DNA of 64,000 nt. It comes from Ruminococcus flavefaciens (GTDB lineage: Bacteria > Bacteroidota > Bacteroidia > Bacteroidales > P3). The notes below the pieces were generated by a model. It did not search any database and was not told the origin of the DNA. It saw nothing but the letters and a program-made list of their open reading frames with translations. The stretch lies in NCBI GenBank assembly GCA_023667315.1, contig JAMPAI010000003.1, forward strand, positions 282,499 through 346,498. The letters run 5' to 3'. The position numbers and the translations under genes were made by a program. Below, piece by piece: positions 20,768 to 64,000 of the stretch. Numbering within the stretch: the first letter of the stretch is position 1; each line of letters opens with the position of its first letter.

Positions 20768-20802
20768 AGAGGGGGGCGCATGCGTTGCATGCGCCCCCCT
20801 CT
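20768..20802. terminator. perfect 16-bp hairpin at the end of the M16 peptidase gene
   Basis: AGAGGGGGGCGCATGC (20768-20783) and its exact complement (20787-20802) enclose a GTT loop. It lies 22 bases after the peptidase stop, and only a weak T tract follows on the minus strand. Confidence 0.6.
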
Positions 20803-50876: not shown

Positions 50877-51533
50877 TTAGGATATGTGTGTTTCGTTGAT
50901 TTTGGTGGCGTAGGTAAGTGTGGAGTATTGTTTTTCTTCGGCATCGCAGACATACGCCCATACGCGGATCTCGTCTTTCTTCCAATCGTCGGGGATGGCA
51001 ACACCGAGGTTGGAGGCTTCGCGGGTAATGGCCTTGATGGCGGTGGCAGTTTGACCGGAGGGAATATGATATACCACCACCGATATTTTGTCGTCTTTCC
51101 GGGGCGAGTCCTGTTCGGGTGTTGTCCACGAGATGGCTACTTTGGAGCCGAAAGAATAGTGCAGTAAGTGGCATCCGATGGCATCCAAAGGGGGAAAGTT
51201 GCCGCGGGTGAGGTTGACTTTGGAATAATCGATATTCACGTTGCCGTCCTTGCAGGTGGTGGCATTTCTTAGCAGGTCGGAAAAGGCGGCGTTGAAGGGT
51301 GTCTGGCCTTTCTTGGGGGGAGTGTAGGATTGCTTGATGATGGGCGTGAAGTGTTTTAGAAACCTCATCGCGGTGGCGAACTTGGTACGGTGGGCGGTCT
51401 GTGCGGGGGTGCGGGGATTGTGGACGTTGGCGGGAAGGGCTTTCATGTAGGGGATTCCTTTCCAGCTGCTGCCGACGACTTTTCCCACCTTGCCTTTGAA
51501 GCCGCCGAGGATGCCTTGTTTGATGGTTCCCAT
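50877..51533 (-). CDS. DUF6266 family protein
   Basis: The 218-residue protein starts MGTIKQGILGGFKGKVG followed by SSWKGIPYMKALP, the diagnostic DUF6266 N terminus, and has a beta-rich C-terminal half (KVAISWTTP, ISVVVYHIPSG, RVWAYVCDAEEKQ). Function unknown. It lies between a paralogue (51613-52248) and the holin gene, 12 bases from the latter. Confidence 0.85.
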   Translation of the reverse strand: MGTIKQGILGGFKGKVGKVVGSSWKGIPYMKALPANVHNPRTPAQTAHRTKFATAMRFLKHFTPIIKQSYTPPKKGQTPFNAAFSDLLRNATTCKDGNVNIDYSKVNLTRGNFPPLDAIGCHLLHYSFGSKVAISWTTPEQDSPRKDDKISVVVYHIPSGQTATAIKAITREASNLGVAIPDDWKKDEIRVWAYVCDAEEKQYSTLTYATKINETHIS

Positions 51534-51612: not shown

Positions 51613-52248
51613 TTAGGCGGCTTCGACGATTTCGCCAAGGTAGATGCTGTCGGACACGGTGCGGCTGTCTTCGCTCTGGAAGGCGAGGTAGCCGTGGAGT
51701 TTCTCGGTGGCCCAGCCGTCGGGAAGGGTGTAGGTGAGGCTTGTGTCGGTGCGGGTGGTGCTCCCGATTTGATAGACGGCCTCGCCGCGGTTTTCGTTGT
51801 AGAGCAGGAACATGATTTTGTCAGTGGTGGCGGCACCGGTGGTATCGCTGTTGTCGCTCCAGGATACTTTGACTTGTCCGGCATCGACATCGGCTGTGCA
51901 GCCCATCACGCCGGGCAAGGAACCGCGAGACACGACCACTTTGGCGAAGTCGATGGCGGTGCCGTCGGCATTGAAGGTTTCTTTGACGACGTGCGCCATG
52001 GCCGCGTTCATGGCGGTGCGCTTGTTGGCCTGGCTCTTGTAGCCGATTTTGATAAAGGGGCTGATGGATTGAAGGAACTTCAATGCGATTCGGAATTTGC
52101 TCCGCTGGTTTACCTGTTTTTCGGTGCGGGCGTCGTTGTAGCTTTGGGCGAGGGCGCGCATATAGCTGATGCCTTTCCAACTGCCGCCGATGACGGTTCC
52201 GACTTTGCCGGAGAAGCCGCCGAGGATGCCTTGTTTGATTACTCCCAT
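51613..52248 (-). CDS. DUF6266 family protein (paralogue)
   Basis: The 211-residue protein starts MGVIKQGILGGFSGKVG followed by GSWKGISYMRALA, so it shares the N-terminal module of its neighbour but diverges toward the C terminus (KVSWSDNSDT, IMFLLYNENRGEAVYQ). Function unknown. A good promoter (52374-52405) precedes it, making it the first gene of the cassette. Confidence 0.85.
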   Translation of the reverse strand: MGVIKQGILGGFSGKVGTVIGGSWKGISYMRALAQSYNDARTEKQVNQRSKFRIALKFLQSISPFIKIGYKSQANKRTAMNAAMAHVVKETFNADGTAIDFAKVVVSRGSLPGVMGCTADVDAGQVKVSWSDNSDTTGAATTDKIMFLLYNENRGEAVYQIGSTTRTDTSLTYTLPDGWATEKLHGYLAFQSEDSRTVSDSIYLGEIVEAA

Positions 52249-55681: not shown

Positions 55682-56557
55682 ATGCCTATGGAAGATTCTG
55701 TTATGCGTTTACCTTTGCACCAATTGGTGGATCAACTCCCAGAAAGCAATCGAGTGGGGTCAGATTATTTTTTTGTGGATAGCCGTTCATACTCTGATGA
55801 ATTGATACCTCTTTGTCATAAATTGACCGTAATGGTTCTCGCAACAAGAGGTAAGTTTGTTTTTTCGATTGGCGAAAAGAAATATGAAATGCAAGCGCCT
55901 TTTGCTGTTCTTTCTTTTAACAAGATTGAGCGAAAAATTCATTCATTGTCGAATGATGCTGAATTTAGAGTTATTATGATGTCTGATTGTTTCTTTTGTG
56001 AATTGTTTAGGGAATTTTCTTTGCATATGGCCATTCTTCGGCCCTTCTTTGAAGATTACGCTTTTTCTTTAACAAAAAATGAAGTGGAAGATATCATTGT
56101 TTACTATAATATGATTGCGAAAGAACTTAATAAGATAGAGAATATCAGACGTAGGGGGGTGATTCGTTGTCTTACCACAGCATTGCTTGTGGGTTATTCT
56201 CCTTCTAAACAAATGAAAAACAAGAGGTTTTTGCATAGAAAGGGTTTGATTGTGGAAAAGTTTATTGATTTACTTTTTTCTTGTTTTAAGGATCGGAGAA
56301 CAGTAAAATTTTATGCGGAGAAGTTATGCATAACGCCTGTATATTTGACTATGACCGTCAAGGATGTTACGGGAATTTCGGCATTGCAATGGATTGATTA
56401 TGTGGTTTCAACCGAGCTTATGTACATATTGCGTTCTACGGATTTATCCTTGGAGGAATTGGCGCAAATATTTCATTTTCAGGATACTGATTGTCTTAAT
56501 AAGTATTTTCGGCGGATAACAGGATATTCACCGAGCGTGTATAGAAAATTTCTATAG
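55682..56557 (+). CDS. AraC-family transcriptional regulator
   Basis: The 291-residue protein has an N-terminal cupin-like sensor (LTVMVLATRGKFVFSIGEKKYEM, about residues 48-75) and a C-terminal double helix-turn-helix (FYAEKLCITPVYLTMTVKDVTG; LSLEELAQIFHFQDTDCLNKYFRRITGYSP) typical of AraC/XylS. The base composition is markedly AT-rich, unlike the backbone, and continuous with the peptide-export genes downstream, so it may control them; this is inferred from position only. Confidence 0.88.
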   Translation: MPMEDSVMRLPLHQLVDQLPESNRVGSDYFFVDSRSYSDELIPLCHKLTVMVLATRGKFVFSIGEKKYEMQAPFAVLSFNKIERKIHSLSNDAEFRVIMMSDCFFCELFREFSLHMAILRPFFEDYAFSLTKNEVEDIIVYYNMIAKELNKIENIRRRGVIRCLTTALLVGYSPSKQMKNKRFLHRKGLIVEKFIDLLFSCFKDRRTVKFYAEKLCITPVYLTMTVKDVTGISALQWIDYVVSTELMYILRSTDLSLEELAQIFHFQDTDCLNKYFRRITGYSPSVYRKFL

Positions 56558-56680
56558 ACTTCGCTTTTGTGAAATCGAAAATATTCATCGTAGTTTAAAA
56601 ATCTTCGGATTTTGTCAAAATCTTGATATTTGTATATGGGCATATATGATATAGTTTTGTGCTGTAAGAGTTTTTGTCAT

Positions 56681-56932
56681 ATGAAGTTCTTGAAAGACAA
56701 GGAGCGCATTGAGCGGTTAGTTCGCTTAGTACAAATGCGATGGCATGGTACACCGGCAGACTATGCCCTGAAGTTGGAAATCTCTGAGAGTACTTTTTAC
56801 AGAATCATAGCAACTTTACGAGAGATGGGCGCTCCAATCGTTTATAACAATATTGATTGTTGCTATCAATTCACCCAGCCTACGGAAATAAAATGTTGTA
56901 TTGAGGTGTCTGTTTTAGATAGCAACGACTAG
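56681..56932 (+). CDS. small helix-turn-helix protein
   Basis: The 83-residue product starting at MKFLKDKERIERL has an HTH-11-like motif (RWHGTPADYALKLEISESTFYRIIATLREMGAPIVY) and a short C-terminal beta segment. Similar single-domain HTH proteins accompany GG-leader peptide loci in Bacteroidota. The 56630 start would add an unlikely hydrophobic leader; 56681 is chosen because it begins on the usual MKFLxDKxRIERL pattern. Confidence 0.75.
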   Translation: MKFLKDKERIERLVRLVQMRWHGTPADYALKLEISESTFYRIIATLREMGAPIVYNNIDCCYQFTQPTEIKCCIEVSVLDSND

Positions 56933-57043
56933 TAGGTTTGCAAAACATTCGGTATTAATGATATTGCTATTGATATCGATGCTTTTATTTCGAGTTTCTA
57001 AAATTTTGGTGGTATACATCCATTCGAACTTGAACGTTGTAAA

Positions 57044-58558
57044 TTAATGAGAGTTTAATTGCAATTGGTGATACTGAGTTGCCGACATCTCTAATTTTTG
57101 GTTTGTAGTAAAATCATAGAGGGTCATTTTGCGGATGGTGTAGTATAAAATCCAGTATTGTTTCAAATCCGATATATAGGTGTTTAGTAAATCGTTTTTT
57201 TGGGTAATGGCATCGCGGTATTCTGTAAAACTGATTTTTGATAATGTATATTGGAGGCGTTCCATTTCGGCTCTTTGAGTGGATATTTCGTAGGCCTGCT
57301 TGGATATTTTTAACTTTTTGGCATACATGACAAATTGTGCGATATTTTGCCTGAGTTCTCTTTCAATAGTTTGTTTCTCTTGGTGAATTTGTAATTGGAC
57401 AGACTCCTGTGTCACTTTTGCTTTGTTAATGCGACTTTTAGCCTTTCCCCAATCTAGCAAAGGAATTTGTAAACCAACTGATACCATTTCCCGATCTAGA
57501 AGAGAGGCGTAGGCTTGAGGCAAGTGTTCAGCATTTTGGTTGAGGCTAAAGGATGCGTAAATTTCCATGCTGAAACGATTTTCTGATTTGGCCTGTGCCA
57601 AATTACTCTTGGACTCCCATTCCCTTTGGAGGAATTCATGGTAAAGTGGATTGTTTTCCGCAATCTCATGCAAAGCAGTTTTTTCATCGATTTGGGGAAA
57701 TATTTCTACGGTGGGGATATTGAAAAACCAGGTTCCTTCGTGGGAGAGAGCGAGGAAGTCTTTCAGTTCGTTTTCTGCACTTTCTTTTTCCATGCGTTTT
57801 TTATCTTGTTCGTATTCTGCCTGTAGAAATGAAAGTTTTATTTGCAGGTAATCAGACTCTGTAATAGTATTGCGAGTGAATTTTTCATATGCTATGGCGT
57901 GAATGGTGTCGGCAGCGTCGCGGTCATTCTGGGCATTTGTGTATTGCTCCTGCTGCAACAAAGCCTCAAAATACAATTCAATTGCGTGAATGTGGATATT
58001 CTCTTGCTCCTGCATGTATTTTTGCCGAGCGACACTATATTTGATCGGGTTGATCTTCTGCTCCCATTTGCTGGCATTATATGTGAACAGAGATTGGCTA
58101 ATGCTGACATTAAAAGGAGTGGCGAGATAAGATTTGGTTCTGTTTATGCCATAAAGATCCAGTCGCTCGAGTCCGGATGAAACGGAAATTCGTGTATTGG
58201 TATATGGAATGAATTGTGTTAAACGTAAACCACCCTCATAGTCACCATAAAATTGAGGAACAAAAGTTTCACGACCGTCACTTAAAGTAGTTCGGGTAAA
58301 AGAGCGATTGATTTGGGGTAGGGTTCCTGTGAATGAGAGCTCGGGTAAAAGTTCTTTTTTTACGGCTATATATTCCCAGTGGCTTTCCATGAAAATTTTT
58401 TGGGCTATTATGGCTTGATCACTGTGGATAGACCATGCTAAAACATTTCCTATGGATACGGTACGAGATGGCGGGGGGCTATCATTACCACAATGGGCCA
58501 AATGGGAAATCAAACAACATAGAAGGCATATGATTATGCCTTTTAAATATGTTTTCAT
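57044..58558 (-). CDS. TolC-family outer-membrane channel of the peptide exporter
   Basis: The 504-residue protein has a signal peptide, long amphipathic helices (about residues 150-230 and 370-440) and beta segments (FNVSISQSLFTYN, VSVGLQIPLLDWGKAKSR), as in outer-membrane factors. It is the last gene of the ABC-HlyD-TolC operon; the ATGA overlap with the HlyD gene implies coupling. Its AT-rich codon use matches the exporter genes. Confidence 0.88.
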   Translation of the reverse strand: MKTYLKGIIICLLCCLISHLAHCGNDSPPPSRTVSIGNVLAWSIHSDQAIIAQKIFMESHWEYIAVKKELLPELSFTGTLPQINRSFTRTTLSDGRETFVPQFYGDYEGGLRLTQFIPYTNTRISVSSGLERLDLYGINRTKSYLATPFNVSISQSLFTYNASKWEQKINPIKYSVARQKYMQEQENIHIHAIELYFEALLQQEQYTNAQNDRDAADTIHAIAYEKFTRNTITESDYLQIKLSFLQAEYEQDKKRMEKESAENELKDFLALSHEGTWFFNIPTVEIFPQIDEKTALHEIAENNPLYHEFLQREWESKSNLAQAKSENRFSMEIYASFSLNQNAEHLPQAYASLLDREMVSVGLQIPLLDWGKAKSRINKAKVTQESVQLQIHQEKQTIERELRQNIAQFVMYAKKLKISKQAYEISTQRAEMERLQYTLSKISFTEYRDAITQKNDLLNTYISDLKQYWILYYTIRKMTLYDFTTNQKLEMSATQYHQLQLNSH

Positions 58559-59916
58559 CGGTAGAGGGATGATTTTATGGGTTTGATTATGCGATCCAAT
58601 ATACTGAGTTCTTCTGTAATAATTTCAGCATTCCCCTGCATCTCCTGAGAGAAGGGCAAAGTGATGCCATAATTTGTTGATAAGCTATCTGGAAGCAATA
58701 ATTCTACAATCATGTATTGAATATCGTCTTGTTGGACAGGGATAGTGGATATTTGTCCGACTTCGGCCTGAACCATACCAAATTCCATATATGGAAAGGC
58801 ATCAAACTGTATCTTTACTTTTTGACCTGCCTTAACCTTGCCTGCGCCTTGCGAGGGAAGTTTGGCCTTCCCCATGATTTTAAGGGTTTGGCAAGGAATA
58901 ACACTGAGTAGTATATCTCCAGTGTTGATTTGTTGATTTTCTTGCCAATAAGATGTTAGTGCTATTTTTCCATCGATGGGACTTCGGAGAATATAATTTT
59001 TTTCCCATGCATCTATTCCGGCACGAAGGTTTCCGCAAGTTGACGATAACTCAATAGTATATTGTTGGTATTGCTCGTTTTTTTGTTGAGCCAATTCCCA
59101 ATACTGTTCTTCTAATTGTGCAACGGAAAGATCGGCGGAAAGGATTTCTGCTTCCGCATTTTCTTTGGCTTGTATACTCTGCAGAAGATTTGTCCGTGTA
59201 TTTTCATATTCAATTTGAGTAATGGCATTTCGAATGAAGAGTAAAGAATCTGTTTGAAATAATTTCTTTTGTGATTCCAATTGTTGAATGGACAGTAGGT
59301 ATTTCCTTTTTGCGCTTTCACGCATTTTTTCATGTATGTCTTTTTGAACTAAGACAACCCTCTGTTTTTGATTGTAGTAGTCATTTTTCAAAAAATTCCT
59401 GTAATCTTGGAGTGCTTTGGCGAACTGGCTATAGTCACTTTGAAATTCACCCAATGCTAATGTTTCGCCTACCAGAGGAAAATACCCCGTGTCTGTTAGA
59501 TAAGATGGATGAGAGATGTAATCTTCCAAGATGGACTTAGCCCGTATGGCGTCTCTGTAGTTGGCCGGATTCTCCAATATGGCCAGGATATCTCCTTTTC
59601 TTACTTCTGAAGCTTCATGAATCAAGAGCGTGTCTATCTTTCCGGTAGAACGTGCAGCGAGATGAACGGGAAGGTTTATGGTGAAAACGGATACAGGGCA
59701 GGATATAGTGTCGGGATACTTTACAAAACCGCTCCCAATGAGAAGGATACCGATTACGGTAGAAACGACACCAATTCCCCAACGTATGATCCATTTTGGA
59801 GGGCGTCCTAAGATGTCTTGTACTTCAGGACTGAACTTTTGTGTATGGAAAAAGTTTTGCTCTTTTTCTTGTGTTGGATTGTTATCTGGCATCTTTTTAC
59901 TATTGTCCGAGTTCAA
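58555..59916 (-). CDS. HlyD-family adaptor of the peptide exporter
   Basis: The 453-residue protein has one N-terminal membrane segment (about residues 45-65), a lipoyl-like half (LAARSTGKIDTLLIHEASEVRKGDILAIL), a long coiled coil (about residues 180-300), the second lipoyl half (ILRSPIDGKIALTSYWQENQQINTGD) and a barrel region. The size and the N-terminal 'KFSPEVQDILGRPP' segment match adaptors that work with C39-peptidase ABC exporters. It overlaps the ABC gene by 17 bases. Confidence 0.9.
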   Translation of the reverse strand: MNSDNSKKMPDNNPTQEKEQNFFHTQKFSPEVQDILGRPPKWIIRWGIGVVSTVIGILLIGSGFVKYPDTISCPVSVFTINLPVHLAARSTGKIDTLLIHEASEVRKGDILAILENPANYRDAIRAKSILEDYISHPSYLTDTGYFPLVGETLALGEFQSDYSQFAKALQDYRNFLKNDYYNQKQRVVLVQKDIHEKMRESAKRKYLLSIQQLESQKKLFQTDSLLFIRNAITQIEYENTRTNLLQSIQAKENAEAEILSADLSVAQLEEQYWELAQQKNEQYQQYTIELSSTCGNLRAGIDAWEKNYILRSPIDGKIALTSYWQENQQINTGDILLSVIPCQTLKIMGKAKLPSQGAGKVKAGQKVKIQFDAFPYMEFGMVQAEVGQISTIPVQQDDIQYMIVELLLPDSLSTNYGITLPFSQEMQGNAEIITEELSILDRIIKPIKSSLYR

Positions 59917-62146
59917 GTTGGTTTTTAACTAATTCGTAGTAGGAGCCACGGATCGCCGTTAATTGTTCATGGGTACCTTTTTCTACGATCCTTCCATTTT
60001 TCAGCACTACGATTTGATCAGCGTGACGAACGGTGCTGAGTCGATGTGCCACCACGACAACGGTTTTCCCTTTAAAAAATGTTTGCAGGTTTTTCATAAT
60101 CGTTCGTTCATTTTCGGCATCCAAGGAATTGGTGGCTTCATCAAAAAAAATGTAATCGGGATTTTTGTATATGGTTCGTGCGATAAGTATACGTTGCTTT
60201 TGCCCTTGGCTTAATCCTTGCCCTTCTTTCCCGATCTTGGTTTGATATCCAGCGGGGAGTTGGTCGACCATATCTTGCAGGTTTGCCATGTGGATGGAAT
60301 GCTCTAACCGAAAAAGATCTATTCTGTCTTCTCCTACAGCGATGTTTCGTGAAAGAGTGTCAGAAAATATATAGCCGTCTTGCATAACAGCCCCACAACA
60401 AGAACGCCATGTGTGTGTATTGATTGTATCAAGACTATATGTTCCCACTTTGATTTTTCCATGAACAGGTTCGTAAAAACCCAATAACACCTTGACGAGC
60501 GTCGTTTTGCCGCTTCCGCTGATTCCTACAATAGCAGTTGTTTTCCCTGCAGGTATTTCTAAATTTATGTTTTCCAGGACGGAAGGTGTACTTGGCCCAC
60601 CATATCGAAATGAGAGGTTTTCTATGTGTATTCCCTGATTCTTGGGAAGTTGTGTTAGGCGACCCAAGTTCCCCTCTTCTTCGTCTTCCTTGTCGTGGAT
60701 TTCCCCCAGACGTTCCATACTTATTTTGGCATCTTGTCCGGATTGGATGAAAGAAACCAGTAGTGATATGGGAGAATTGAGTTGTCCGATGATATATTGT
60801 ACAGCCATCATCATACCAAGACTCATTTCGCCTTTAATTACAGCTCTTGCAGACAAAAAAGAAACAAGAATGTTCTTTGCTTGATTGATGAATGTACACC
60901 CGGCCTGTTGGTATTGTTGTAAGGCCAAACCATCTATGCTTATCTTGAACAACTTGGCCTGTATGGTTTCCCATGTCCAACGTTTCTGCTTTTCGCAATT
61001 CTGCAACTTTATCTCCTGCATAGCGGTTACCATTTCAAATAAATGGCTCTGTTCTGCCGATGTTTGAGCAAAGCGTTTGTAATCGATCTCCCGTCGTTTT
61101 TTTAGGTATAGGAAAATCCATAGCACATACAGGATGCTCGATATGGTAAAAACGATGAAAATAAGGCCATTGTATATAGCAAGGACAATAAGGAAAACTA
61201 TGAGAGAGAAGAACGAAAAGAAAGTCTGTAGGGTCTCCTGGGTTAGAAAACTTTGGATACGGGAATTGTCTCGTATGCGTTGGAGGAGGTCTCCTATGAG
61301 GCGGCTGTCAAAAAAACGGATAGGAAGTTTCATCAATTTAATGAGAAATTCCGATATCATTGATACATTGATACGCGTGGTAATATGGAGGAGAATCCAA
61401 GATTGAATAAACTCCACAATAGTTTGACTGGCAAACAAGACCAGTTGAGCGACCAGTATAAGCGTGACGAAACTTAAATTTTGATTCCCGATTCCATAGT
61501 CCACTATACTCTGCGTGAGAAACGGAAAGATAAGCTGAAGAATGGATGCTAAAACAACACCAATGAGTAGTTGAAGTACATACTTTTTATAGGGTTTGAG
61601 GTAACGTAATAAAAAGGAGAATCTTTTCCGGGATTGTGAGTCTTCTTTTTGTGTGTAAAAATCCGGGGTTGGCTCCAAAAGAAGGGCTATTCCCTGTTTT
61701 TCCTGCGCACTGCACCACCCGTTCAAAAAATCAGTGACGGATATACTGATAAGGCCATGAGCAGGATCTGCTAAAAGAATCTTTGCCTTTTCTTCGTTTT
61801 TCCTGTTGGAAATTTTATAAACCACAACGAAGTGATTTTGCTTCCAATGCACGATGCAGGGGAGAACGGCCTGTTCTAATAATTGATGGATGGTTATCTG
61901 AACTCCGATGGTGCGAAATCCCAAGGATTCCGCCGCGTTGCTGATATCAAGCAGTGACACACCTTGGCGAGTTGCGTAGCAAGCTTCGCGCAACCTTTCA
62001 AGTGAACGGTATTTGCCGTAGTATTGGCTTATCATGGAAAGACAGGCGACCCCGCAATCCATGCTGTCAGGCTGTTTTACAAAAGGGTATTTGGCTATAT
62101 GCACTATTCTACAATTTATTACAAATCTAAAAAATGACACTTTCAT
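59900..62146 (-). CDS. C39-peptidase ABC exporter for double-glycine peptides
   Basis: The 748-residue protein fuses an N-terminal C39 cysteine protease (catalytic Cys31 in KQPDSMDCGVACL, His105 in WKQNHFVVVY, Asp127 in LLADPAHG), six membrane segments (about residues 190-470) and an ABC ATPase (Walker A GISGSGKTT, signature LSQGQKQR, Walker B YIFFDEATNSLD, switch HRLST). Known members cut the leader after a GG pair and export the mature peptide through HlyD and TolC partners, both encoded downstream. The obvious substrates are the divergent peptides at 62312 and 63595. Confidence 0.93.
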   Translation of the reverse strand: MKVSFFRFVINCRIVHIAKYPFVKQPDSMDCGVACLSMISQYYGKYRSLERLREACYATRQGVSLLDISNAAESLGFRTIGVQITIHQLLEQAVLPCIVHWKQNHFVVVYKISNRKNEEKAKILLADPAHGLISISVTDFLNGWCSAQEKQGIALLLEPTPDFYTQKEDSQSRKRFSFLLRYLKPYKKYVLQLLIGVVLASILQLIFPFLTQSIVDYGIGNQNLSFVTLILVAQLVLFASQTIVEFIQSWILLHITTRINVSMISEFLIKLMKLPIRFFDSRLIGDLLQRIRDNSRIQSFLTQETLQTFFSFFSLIVFLIVLAIYNGLIFIVFTISSILYVLWIFLYLKKRREIDYKRFAQTSAEQSHLFEMVTAMQEIKLQNCEKQKRWTWETIQAKLFKISIDGLALQQYQQAGCTFINQAKNILVSFLSARAVIKGEMSLGMMMAVQYIIGQLNSPISLLVSFIQSGQDAKISMERLGEIHDKEDEEEGNLGRLTQLPKNQGIHIENLSFRYGGPSTPSVLENINLEIPAGKTTAIVGISGSGKTTLVKVLLGFYEPVHGKIKVGTYSLDTINTHTWRSCCGAVMQDGYIFSDTLSRNIAVGEDRIDLFRLEHSIHMANLQDMVDQLPAGYQTKIGKEGQGLSQGQKQRILIARTIYKNPDYIFFDEATNSLDAENERTIMKNLQTFFKGKTVVVVAHRLSTVRHADQIVVLKNGRIVEKGTHEQLTAIRGSYYELVKNQLELGQ

Positions 62147-62158
62147 TTATTGAGAGTC

Positions 62159-62182
62159 TTGGTGATGTACCCTTATCACCAA
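62159..62182. promoter_or_regulatory. inverted repeat in the divergent exporter/peptide intergenic region
   Basis: TTGGTGAT (62159-62166) and ATCACCAA (62175-62182) are perfect complements separated by 8 bases, 13 bases upstream of the exporter start. The symmetry suits a dimeric regulator acting on one or both divergent promoters. Confidence 0.45.
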
Positions 62183-62311
62183 CAACGAATTGGATGTGTC
62201 TCTGGATGATGTGCTGATTTGTCAAGTTGCCCTTTATAGGACAACGATGCGATGATGTCATTTTTTGCGAGTGAATTGTTCTTATTTTGTATGACTTTAA
62301 CTAGAATAGTT

Positions 62312-62545
62312 GTGAAAAAGTTAAAGAAACTTGATTTGCGACAGATGACACGTGAAGAACTTGTCAATACGATGGGTGGGGACGGGGCAAGTACGTACAC
62401 TCATTCCGTTGCAACAGCCACACCTTTTACAGACAGAGATGATTTCGTCTTTGACGACAATGACAGACTTGTTGCACATTATCGGATATTGCTTGAATCT
62501 CCTATACGAGCAACGGACACAGTGTCTAAACCATTACATCCTTAA
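62312..62545 (+). CDS. double-glycine-leader peptide 1
   Basis: The 77-residue product starts at GTG 62312 (the ATG at 62252 adds an unrelated hydrophobic stretch). The leader KKLKKLDLRQMTREELVNTM ends in GG at positions 22-23, followed by a 54-residue core. With this start the protein aligns without gaps to the 77-residue peptide at 63595 (38 of 77 identical by eye). The core has no Cys; it shares DR..F...DD...L.AHY and RA.DT with its paralogue. Predicted export by the C39 transporter encoded divergently. No modifying enzyme is seen in the window. Confidence 0.85.
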   Translation: MKKLKKLDLRQMTREELVNTMGGDGASTYTHSVATATPFTDRDDFVFDDNDRLVAHYRILLESPIRATDTVSKPLHP

Positions 62546-62548
62546 TCT

Positions 62549-63517
62549 ATGAATACGCCTAAACTTGTATTGGAGCTCCCCCTCTTGTTCGTAGGCTTTT
62601 TTACTGTGGCTTGTTCGAATAGGGAAACCCCACCCGATTACATCGAAAGCCGGTATTACACGCGGGTGGCGGAGGCACAGCTTGCCTACTTGCAAGACGA
62701 CTATGCGGAGGCATACCGGATTTTGTTGGATTTGGAAGCCGAAATTCCTCTCTTGAATAATTTAGAGTCGTATGAAATGCCTATGTTGGTGGAACTCTGC
62801 CTGCGTTACGGGGATTATGAAAAAGCCTATGCCTATATGAAATCCTTGGTGGCCGACCACGGGTTTCCTATCGACAACTTCAAAGACTACGAAAATCTCG
62901 ATATCCTGAAACGCCAGCCTTTCTACGATTCTTCCACTTTGGCAAGGTCGGAGTCGGATTTTGTAACCGACAGCGTTTGGGTTGAAGAAATGGGGGAACT
63001 CCTCCGGAAAGATATTGCCTGTAGGTCTTCGTTAGCGTATCCTTTTAGCGATTCCGTCATTGCAGCGTTCCGTTATGTAGACAGTTGCAATTTTTACCGC
63101 CTTAAAGAATTGATGATACAACACGGTTTTCCCCTTGCGCAAAACAAGAGATTTACTCTTCAGCAAAGGACTACTGTGTTTGTGGCACTCTCCACTTTGT
63201 GTGTGCATTTGGTGGATTCGGCGTATATGGCATTTCTAACGCCAATCCTCTATCAGAATATTAAAAGCGGGGATTGCCCTCCGGAATTCCTTGGTGCCAT
63301 GTTCGACAGCAAGGCGAGGGCGGATAGTTGCTTTCTCTTTGGCACGTATGTGGATGTTAGGAAGGATATGATATGCGATGTGGAGCATTTGGACGAAAGG
63401 CGCGCAGAAATAGGGTTACCACCCCATCGTTTATCTTGCCAATTAGCGCTTGCCTTTTTTCAAAAGTCCAACTCTAATGACACCACTGCTTTATCTATGT
63501 TCAACTGCGATTTTTGA
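62549..63517 (+). CDS. secreted lipoprotein following GG-leader peptide 1
   Basis: The 322-residue product starts 3 bases after the peptide stop. It has a lipoprotein signal (lipobox TVAC, Cys22) and then a helical pattern resembling tetratricopeptides (RYYTRVAEAQLAYLQDDYAEAYRILLDLE at about residue 35 onward, ELCLRYGDYEKAYAYMKSL). The C-terminal half has paired cysteines and FFQKSNSN. A paralogue follows the second peptide. Roles as immunity protein, receptor or peptide partner are all possible; none can be decided from sequence. Confidence 0.7.
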   Translation: MNTPKLVLELPLLFVGFFTVACSNRETPPDYIESRYYTRVAEAQLAYLQDDYAEAYRILLDLEAEIPLLNNLESYEMPMLVELCLRYGDYEKAYAYMKSLVADHGFPIDNFKDYENLDILKRQPFYDSSTLARSESDFVTDSVWVEEMGELLRKDIACRSSLAYPFSDSVIAAFRYVDSCNFYRLKELMIQHGFPLAQNKRFTLQQRTTVFVALSTLCVHLVDSAYMAFLTPILYQNIKSGDCPPEFLGAMFDSKARADSCFLFGTYVDVRKDMICDVEHLDERRAEIGLPPHRLSCQLALAFFQKSNSNDTTALSMFNCDF

Positions 63518-63558
63518 ATAAGTAATGGTGGGTGTCTTTTTTTGAGAGTAGATTGCTT

Positions 63559-63566
63559 TAACTTTG
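63559..63566 (+). promoter_or_regulatory. -7 element before GG-leader peptide 2
   Basis: TAACTTTG matches TAnnTTTG, 28 bases before the ATG at 63595; this cassette may have its own promoter. Confidence 0.5.
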
Positions 63567-63594
63567 ACTTATAAACCCCAAAAATAGAACAGCT

Positions 63595-63828
63595 ATGAAA
63601 AATTTAAAGAAACTTGATCTACATCAGATTACGCGTGAAGAACTCGCCAATACAAGAGGAGGAGATGGAGGAACCTCGTCCGCTATCTCCATTGCAACGG
63701 AAAGGCAACTTCCGGATAGGGAAAATTTTATCTATGATGACAAGGGTGTACTTCTTGCCCATTACATAGCATACTCCGCAACTCCCGTACGAGCTGCCGA
63801 CACCTCGTACACATATTTACGTCCTTAG
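63595..63828 (+). CDS. double-glycine-leader peptide 2
   Basis: The 77-residue product has the leader KNLKKLDLHQITREELANTR ending in GG at positions 22-23 and a 54-residue core without Cys. Conserved with peptide 1 are DR, F, DD, AHY, P, RA and DT, ending LxP in both. Predicted processing after GG by the C39 exporter. The leader pattern is the one annotated in Bacteroidota natural-product precursor families, but no radical SAM or lanthipeptide enzyme is visible in the window. Confidence 0.88.
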   Translation: MKNLKKLDLHQITREELANTRGGDGGTSSAISIATERQLPDRENFIYDDKGVLLAHYIAYSATPVRAADTSYTYLRP

Positions 63829-63831
63829 GTT

Positions 63832-64000
63832 ATGAATCGACAGAAATGGATACTACTGCTATTCCCTTGGCTTATCTGCATTCTCAAGGCCGAGGGCTCG
63901 GATACAGTAACGGTTCCCGATTATATCGGGAACCGTTACTATACACGGGTGGCGGAGGCGCAGTATGCGTTTATTCAAGAGAATTACAGGCAAGCCTACG
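63832..64000 (+). CDS. secreted protein following GG-leader peptide 2 (3' end outside window)
   Basis: The frame starts 3 bases after the peptide 2 stop and is open to the window end (56 codons). It has a signal peptide and then VPDYIGNRYYTRVAEAQYA, then FIQENYRQAY, matching PDYIESRYYTRVAEAQ of the first lipoprotein. Spacing and order repeat those of the first cassette. Whether it carries a lipobox is unclear (ICILKAEGS). Confidence 0.75.
   Translation, partial: MNRQKWILLLFPWLICILKAEGSDTVTVPDYIGNRYYTRVAEAQYAFIQENYRQAY

Follow-up and report, generated by a model that had tools for sequence, protein, structure and literature searches.

The window analysed here is a stretch of 64,000 nucleotides (contig C33, 282499-346498), and the locus under study, at 55682-64000, is a peptide export island at its right end. 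On the minus strand lies an export operon of a C39 peptidase-ABC exporter, an HlyD-type adaptor and a TolC-type outer membrane channel, and divergent from it two plus-strand cassettes stand in tandem, each made of a precursor peptide with a GG leader and a secreted partner protein. All the genes listed in a preliminary description of this DNA were found in the order it gave, as judged from open reading frames (ORFs) and Pfam/NCBIfam profile matches, and the 3 bp between peptide and partner were confirmed in both cassettes. We read the locus, with somewhat better than even confidence, as a precursor and export locus for ribosomally synthesized and post-translationally modified peptides (RiPPs) of the graspetide (grasp-with-spasm) type, and it is unusual in repeating its peptide-plus-lipoprotein cassette. 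The features are collected in Table 1.

Table 1. Features of the locus, with positions in the window (HTH, helix-turn-helix; TPR, tetratricopeptide repeat; aa, amino acids).
Feature	Position	Strand	Remarks
AraC-family regulator	55682..56557	+	HTH_18 7.5e-14, above cut-off
Small HTH protein	56630..56932	+	HTH_11 under cut-off; relatives in the fetched loci L179, L149, L167, L177
TolC-type outer membrane channel	57044..58558	-	PF02321 3.2e-27
HlyD-type adaptor	58555..59916	-	PF13437 1.5e-11
C39 peptidase-ABC exporter	59900..62146	-	PF03412, PF00664, PF00005 above cut-off; Walker A present
Shared upstream element, cassette 1	62261..62284	+	Possible promoter; pattern drawn from the two sites
GG-leader precursor peptide 1	62312..62545	+	77 aa, GTG start; core without Cys, rich in Thr/Ser/Asp
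Secreted/lipoprotein partner 1	62549..63517	+	TPR-like N-half, DUF6624-like C-half
Shared upstream element, cassette 2	63538..63561	+	Same element as 62261..62284
GG-leader precursor peptide 2	63595..63828	+	77 aa; core without Cys
Partner 2	63832..64000	+	Cut by the window/contig end after 56 aa

The partner protein has a TPR-type N-terminal half, and its C-terminal half is distantly related to the Pfam family DUF6624 (PF20329), from which the partner differs by this extra TPR-like half. In two partner homologs the C-terminal half matches PF20329 at E 5.5e-4 and 9.8e-4 (19-20 bits vs a gathering score of 27); the window partner itself was not listed at E<=1 and does not reach the gathering score. 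The search with the single partner protein returned no relative, and the search with the partner alignment returned three loci. Both other genomes in which a partner lies beside a GG peptide (G007 and G213) carry these genes in grasp-with-spasm RiPP clusters. The order in G007, on a contig that begins inside the first partner, is partner, partner, GG peptide, ATP-grasp, small protein and SPASM, with profile scores of 264 bits for the ATP-grasp protein (TIGR04192, cut-off 230) and 204 for the SPASM protein (TIGR04193, cut-off 175); in G213 it is two GG peptides, partner, ATP-grasp, small protein, SPASM and the start of an HlyD gene. Neither the DUF6624-like half nor these relatives had been noticed in the preliminary description, and because of these relatives the window peptides are probably modified.

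The association was counted around ATP-grasp genes. At E<=1e-20, TIGR04192 gave 15 matches in the 190 family genomes and 37 in 395 phylum genomes; three of the family matches were already in the loci L017, L062 and L065, 40 further stretches were added, and the scan with our own profiles covered 50 of the 52 matches, a neighbouring pair in G308 being left out. A DUF6624-like match (E<=0.01) lies within 5 kb of 17 of the 29 ATP-grasp genes with SPASM (14 of 26 without L017, L062 and L065, which had been used for training the profiles), and of 1 of the 21 ATP-grasp genes without SPASM (15 loci), this one being L162, which has two such matches. The exporter loci outside known ATP-grasp clusters gave 0 of 16, several of them being cut by contig ends. 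These counts are not independent: L134 and L135 share a contig, neighbouring pairs make up many of the 21, and contig ends truncate several loci. The earlier proposal of a dedicated partner is thus supported as a recurrent association with the clusters, but not as strict pairing; a 1:1 rule was rejected, because G213 has two peptides and one partner and G007 has two partners and one peptide.

A strongly hydrophobic N-terminus (mean Kyte-Doolittle hydropathy >=2.2) was found in 20 of 22 DUF6624-like proteins vs 7 of 79 ATP-grasp/SPASM ORFs; this is a hydropathy measure and not a signal-peptide predictor, and of the two proteins that lack such an N-terminus, one is a contig-cut fragment and the other L134. 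As far as sequence can tell, it points to partners that act outside the cytosol and argues against a cytosolic tailoring enzyme. The lipoprotein nature proposed earlier fits partner 1, in which a lipobox-like FTVAC is seen by eye; partner 2 has a signal-peptide-like start but no canonical lipobox in its visible part.

The association of DUF6624 with graspetides is already in print. In the excerpts of Makarova et al. (2022; PMC8939145) available to us, Bacteroides-specific ATP-grasp loci are described with SPASM, GG precursors and a small LPL protein, and a 'cluster 23' protein or homolog is present in almost all such loci, many with signal peptide and lipidation site and with function unknown; in those of Carter et al. 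(2026; PMC13097080), DUF6624 is frequent in graspetide groups 18, 20, 23 and 42, and SPASM occurs throughout group 14. Judged from the same excerpts, the Bacteroidota grasp-with-spasm clusters ('branch 5' of Makarova et al., TIGR04192/TIGR04193) share with the window the GG precursors and C39/HlyD export, and their secreted or lipoprotein 'cluster 23' protein may correspond to the window partner, whereas the window has no assembled ATP-grasp or SPASM gene, cores without Cys and a repeated peptide-plus-partner unit. This possible correspondence was judged from the homology of the window partner to partners beside ATP-grasp and SPASM genes. A repeated peptide-partner cassette, a narrow TPR-fused subfamily or stand-alone partner copies were not met in the excerpts of these two papers; nor was a second peptide-partner pair noticed, without a formal count, in the clusters sampled here (23 loci, 3.5 kb upstream). 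No publication naming a function for the DUF6624-like partner was recognised in the portions of the literature that our search returned.

In both window peptides the conserved leader terminates in GG, as is found in the small precursors of grasp-with-spasm clusters, and the two peptides are identical at 18 of 23 leader and 21 of 54 core positions. The length of 77 residues given in the preliminary description is right for peptide 2, and for peptide 1 only with the GTG start at 62312 (the longest ORF begins at 62252). Both cores are rich in Thr/Ser/Asp and have no Cys; when they are aligned with the G007 core, one Thr and one Asp are common to the three. The upstream regions of the two peptides align and hold a common element, so the whole peptide-plus-partner unit, upstream region included, looks duplicated. 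Matches to this element averaged 0.11 in shuffles, and two matches were reached in 2 of 100 shuffles, a figure obtained after the fact with a pattern drawn from the two sites. The search of the 190 genomes with peptide 2 gave, beyond the two matches of its own genome, only chance-level matches (best E 0.046) and missed the G007 and G213 precursors; the peptide sequences are too variable to trace by such searches.

The exporter shows DCG, HFVVV and ADP stretches together with ABC domains, as expected of a C39 peptidase-ABC exporter, and Cys31, His105 and Asp127 in these catalytic-type stretches are presumably the active residues. Since the alignment with most full-length relatives begins only at residue 11-22, translation may really start further inside the ORF. 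No other PF03412 (C39) match was found in its own assembly, which makes this exporter the best candidate to cut both leaders, and the earlier proposal that the peptides are its cargo is well supported by this and by the conserved leaders. Like the exporters known as PCATs (PDB 4ry2 and 8vp3; phmmer 6.5e-110 and 8.1e-110), it has C39 and ABC over its whole length, and a P-glycoprotein scores equally to them on the ABC part; unlike them, it is accompanied by HlyD and TolC, as suits a double membrane. Homologous cassettes in a genome without any C39 exporter were named in the preliminary description as a refuting case. G007 combines GG peptide, partner and maturases with two exporter matches (E<=1e-30) that cover the query from residues 240 and 245 on, past the C39 domain, and its genome is only 84% complete.

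An exporter match at E<=1e-120 is present in 19 of the 190 family genomes, own genome counted, with 23 matches when at most 5 candidates per genome are scored. One of these is the window exporter. By coordinates, G071:C4 and G207:C39 fall in ATP-grasp clusters; three matches are at the ends of contigs, and at G032:C47 a GG peptide but no ATP-grasp match was seen; the 16 fetched exporter loci gave no ATP-grasp or SPASM match with our own profiles. Exporter phylogeny was rejected as proof of the graspetide type, since the matches are spread over different locus types; the exporter serves several RiPP types, and the type of the window locus is therefore not settled by its exporter.

Contig C33 stops exactly at the window end. 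Its final 55 bp, in partner 2, recur without a difference as the last 55 bp of contig C44 (209,817 bp), which, read in the same direction, ends in another partner gene at the same residue; in G007, two contigs starting within partner genes likewise share exactly 55 bp. We infer that these breaks are branches of a k=55 assembly graph. The window end is thus an assembly break caused by a repeat, and because this repeat is common with C44 the locus continues past the window. Further copies had been predicted to the right; no further peptide was seen. The assembly holds one more partner copy, at C44:1-160, and reading three frames of 540 bp before it gave no GG peptide. It is preceded by a YafQ toxin gene (PF15738) and, by eye, an antitoxin-like ORF (locus L016, G000:C44, 1-778). 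The C44 and G007:C2 partner genes were considered as orphans and dropped, as no GG peptide precedes them and the following sequence lies off the contig. The C44 partner starts like partner 1 and ends in the 55 bp of partner 2, as if recombined. A perfect inverted repeat with 16-bp arms and a 3-nt loop lies at 63906-63940 within the coding start of partner 2, where the C44 copy differs; an equally long one is present at 20768-20802.

Partner genes were also found away from intact maturases, in G031:C76 and G021:C24, with no peptide detected in the leader scan, and these stand-alone genes resemble orphan immunity genes. The G031 gene (L021, 11102-12877) lies beside a pair that looks HEPN/MNT-like by eye. 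In the G021 locus (L020, 10110-10412), a 100-aa ORF joins an ATP-grasp-like start, seen by eye, to an inner piece of a C39 exporter (9e-18), perhaps what is left of a cluster that collapsed. In L023 (G035:C14) and L063 (G139:C22), from a different genus of the family, large secreted-looking proteins (~570-760 aa) lie next to each other, some of them with DUF6624-like matches.

If the locus is of the graspetide type, an ATP-grasp ligase and its SPASM partner, both encoded in the unassembled part, would cross-link the precursors in the cytosol through Thr/Ser and Asp/Glu side chains; the C39 domain would cut after GG, and the mature peptides would leave via HlyD and TolC. The partner would reach the envelope by its own signal peptide and there bind or disarm the peptide for the producer, or receive it. 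This role in self-protection or reception is the least certain step and is put forward tentatively; it was suggested by the one-to-one pairing in the window, the secretion and the peptide-less partner genes in G031 and G021.

Several results weigh against the graspetide reading. The own assembly, 98.9% complete and with a contig break at a repeat inside the locus, has no match to TIGR04192 or TIGR04193 at E<=0.1; the exact 55-bp repeat gives a reason for missing genes but is no proof, and because no maturase was found we do not count the locus among the confirmed grasp-with-spasm clusters. Neither precursor belongs by its matches to a curated family of precursors, the only NCBIfam match being 7 residues long (E 0.18) and the only Pfam match a plant family (E 0.027). 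Many precursors in the sampled clusters have Cys, among them those of G213, and the excerpts of PMC8939145 call conserved Cys typical of branch 5 precursors, whereas the window cores have none, as is also the case for the G007 core. Among the ATP-grasp genes with SPASM, 12 of 29 have no DUF6624-like neighbour; the weakest matches counted are at E 0.005-0.008, PF20329 is above cut-off in 3 of 10 cluster-linked proteins (below in 2, not listed in 5), and peptide and partner do not come in equal numbers in the relatives.

The nearest exporters, from the same genus (G008 75%, G002 69%), have TIGR04148 radical S-adenosylmethionine (radical-SAM) maturases 4-5 kb away, which also speaks against the graspetide type and raises the possibility, rather improbable in our view, of a GG-peptide system of the TIGR04148/TIGR04150 type with its maturase beyond the contig end. 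TIGR04148 is above cut-off in 4 of the 6 exporter loci whose proteins were tested (the other two have radical-SAM/SPASM proteins under every cut-off shown), and the G008 locus has a related small HTH protein. These systems share the nearest exporters by sequence but have other maturases and, in the loci examined, no DUF6624-like partner, as in all 16 exporter loci counted above; precursors in several of them have Cys, as seen by eye, unlike the window cores. A GG leader and a C39 exporter are enough for unmodified bacteriocins, and as no grasp-with-spasm maturase was found in the own assembly, the peptides might be class II bacteriocin-like, C39-cut and exported unmodified, with the lipoproteins as immunity proteins. 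We hold this unlikely too, since both relatives with peptide plus partner carry ATP-grasp and SPASM.

A different question is whether the partner, instead of being an immunity or receptor protein, is secreted to process the exported peptide as a tailoring enzyme or protease. We hold this alternative about as likely as self-protection or reception, with low confidence in either. His220, Arg285, Asp155 and Asp178 are invariant in an alignment of seven partner sequences, and such conserved His/Arg/Asp residues suggest, at the level of sequence, an enzyme more than a pure binder; this is a further point against the proposed role. On the other side, the G031 and G021 partner genes have neither a detected peptide nor an intact maturase near them, it was mainly the TPR half that could be placed by comparing folds, and we know of no catalytic site in the DUF6624-like partner. 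In the other direction, the excerpts of Carter et al. (2026; PMC13097080) suggest that DUF6624 is a new enzyme class, and those of Makarova et al. (2022; PMC8939145) that cluster 23 has enzymatic activity.

Within the graspetide reading, a more specific and speculative proposal, to which we give a low probability, treats the cassette as an exchangeable unit: a graspetide precursor and, anchored in the envelope, a TPR/DUF6624 protein of its own that would recognise that peptide for self-protection or reception. Such copies would also occur singly, twice next to toxin-antitoxin-like genes, and recombine with each other. Confidence in this proposal, in the partner role and in the graspetide type was lowered because of the Cys, precursor-family and C44/G007:C2 results, and two of the alternatives were raised slightly. 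If the proposal is true, a protein family that ranks among the most frequent of those still unexplained in graspetide clusters would gain a function. The two diverged peptide-partner pairs, side by side, offer a direct way of testing the specificity of a partner for its own peptide.

The base composition of the island was also reviewed. Its AT-richness is real (GC 0.36-0.45 vs 0.548 for 1-55681), although not unique within the window, as 44-50 kb is also AT-rich (GC 0.445-0.474). The acquisition suggested from it does not require a distant source, because, among the family genomes searched, the closest exporters belong to the same genus. On the other side of the export operon, the small HTH protein matches its relatives by phmmer at 6.9e-22 (L179) and 8.8e-08 (L149), and the relatives at L149:10543-10911 and L177:4311-4622 have a GG-leader-like stretch near the C-terminal end. 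Outside the island, two similar minus-strand proteins lie in tandem at 50877-51533 and 51613-52248, both starting with MG.IKQGILGGF.GKVG.

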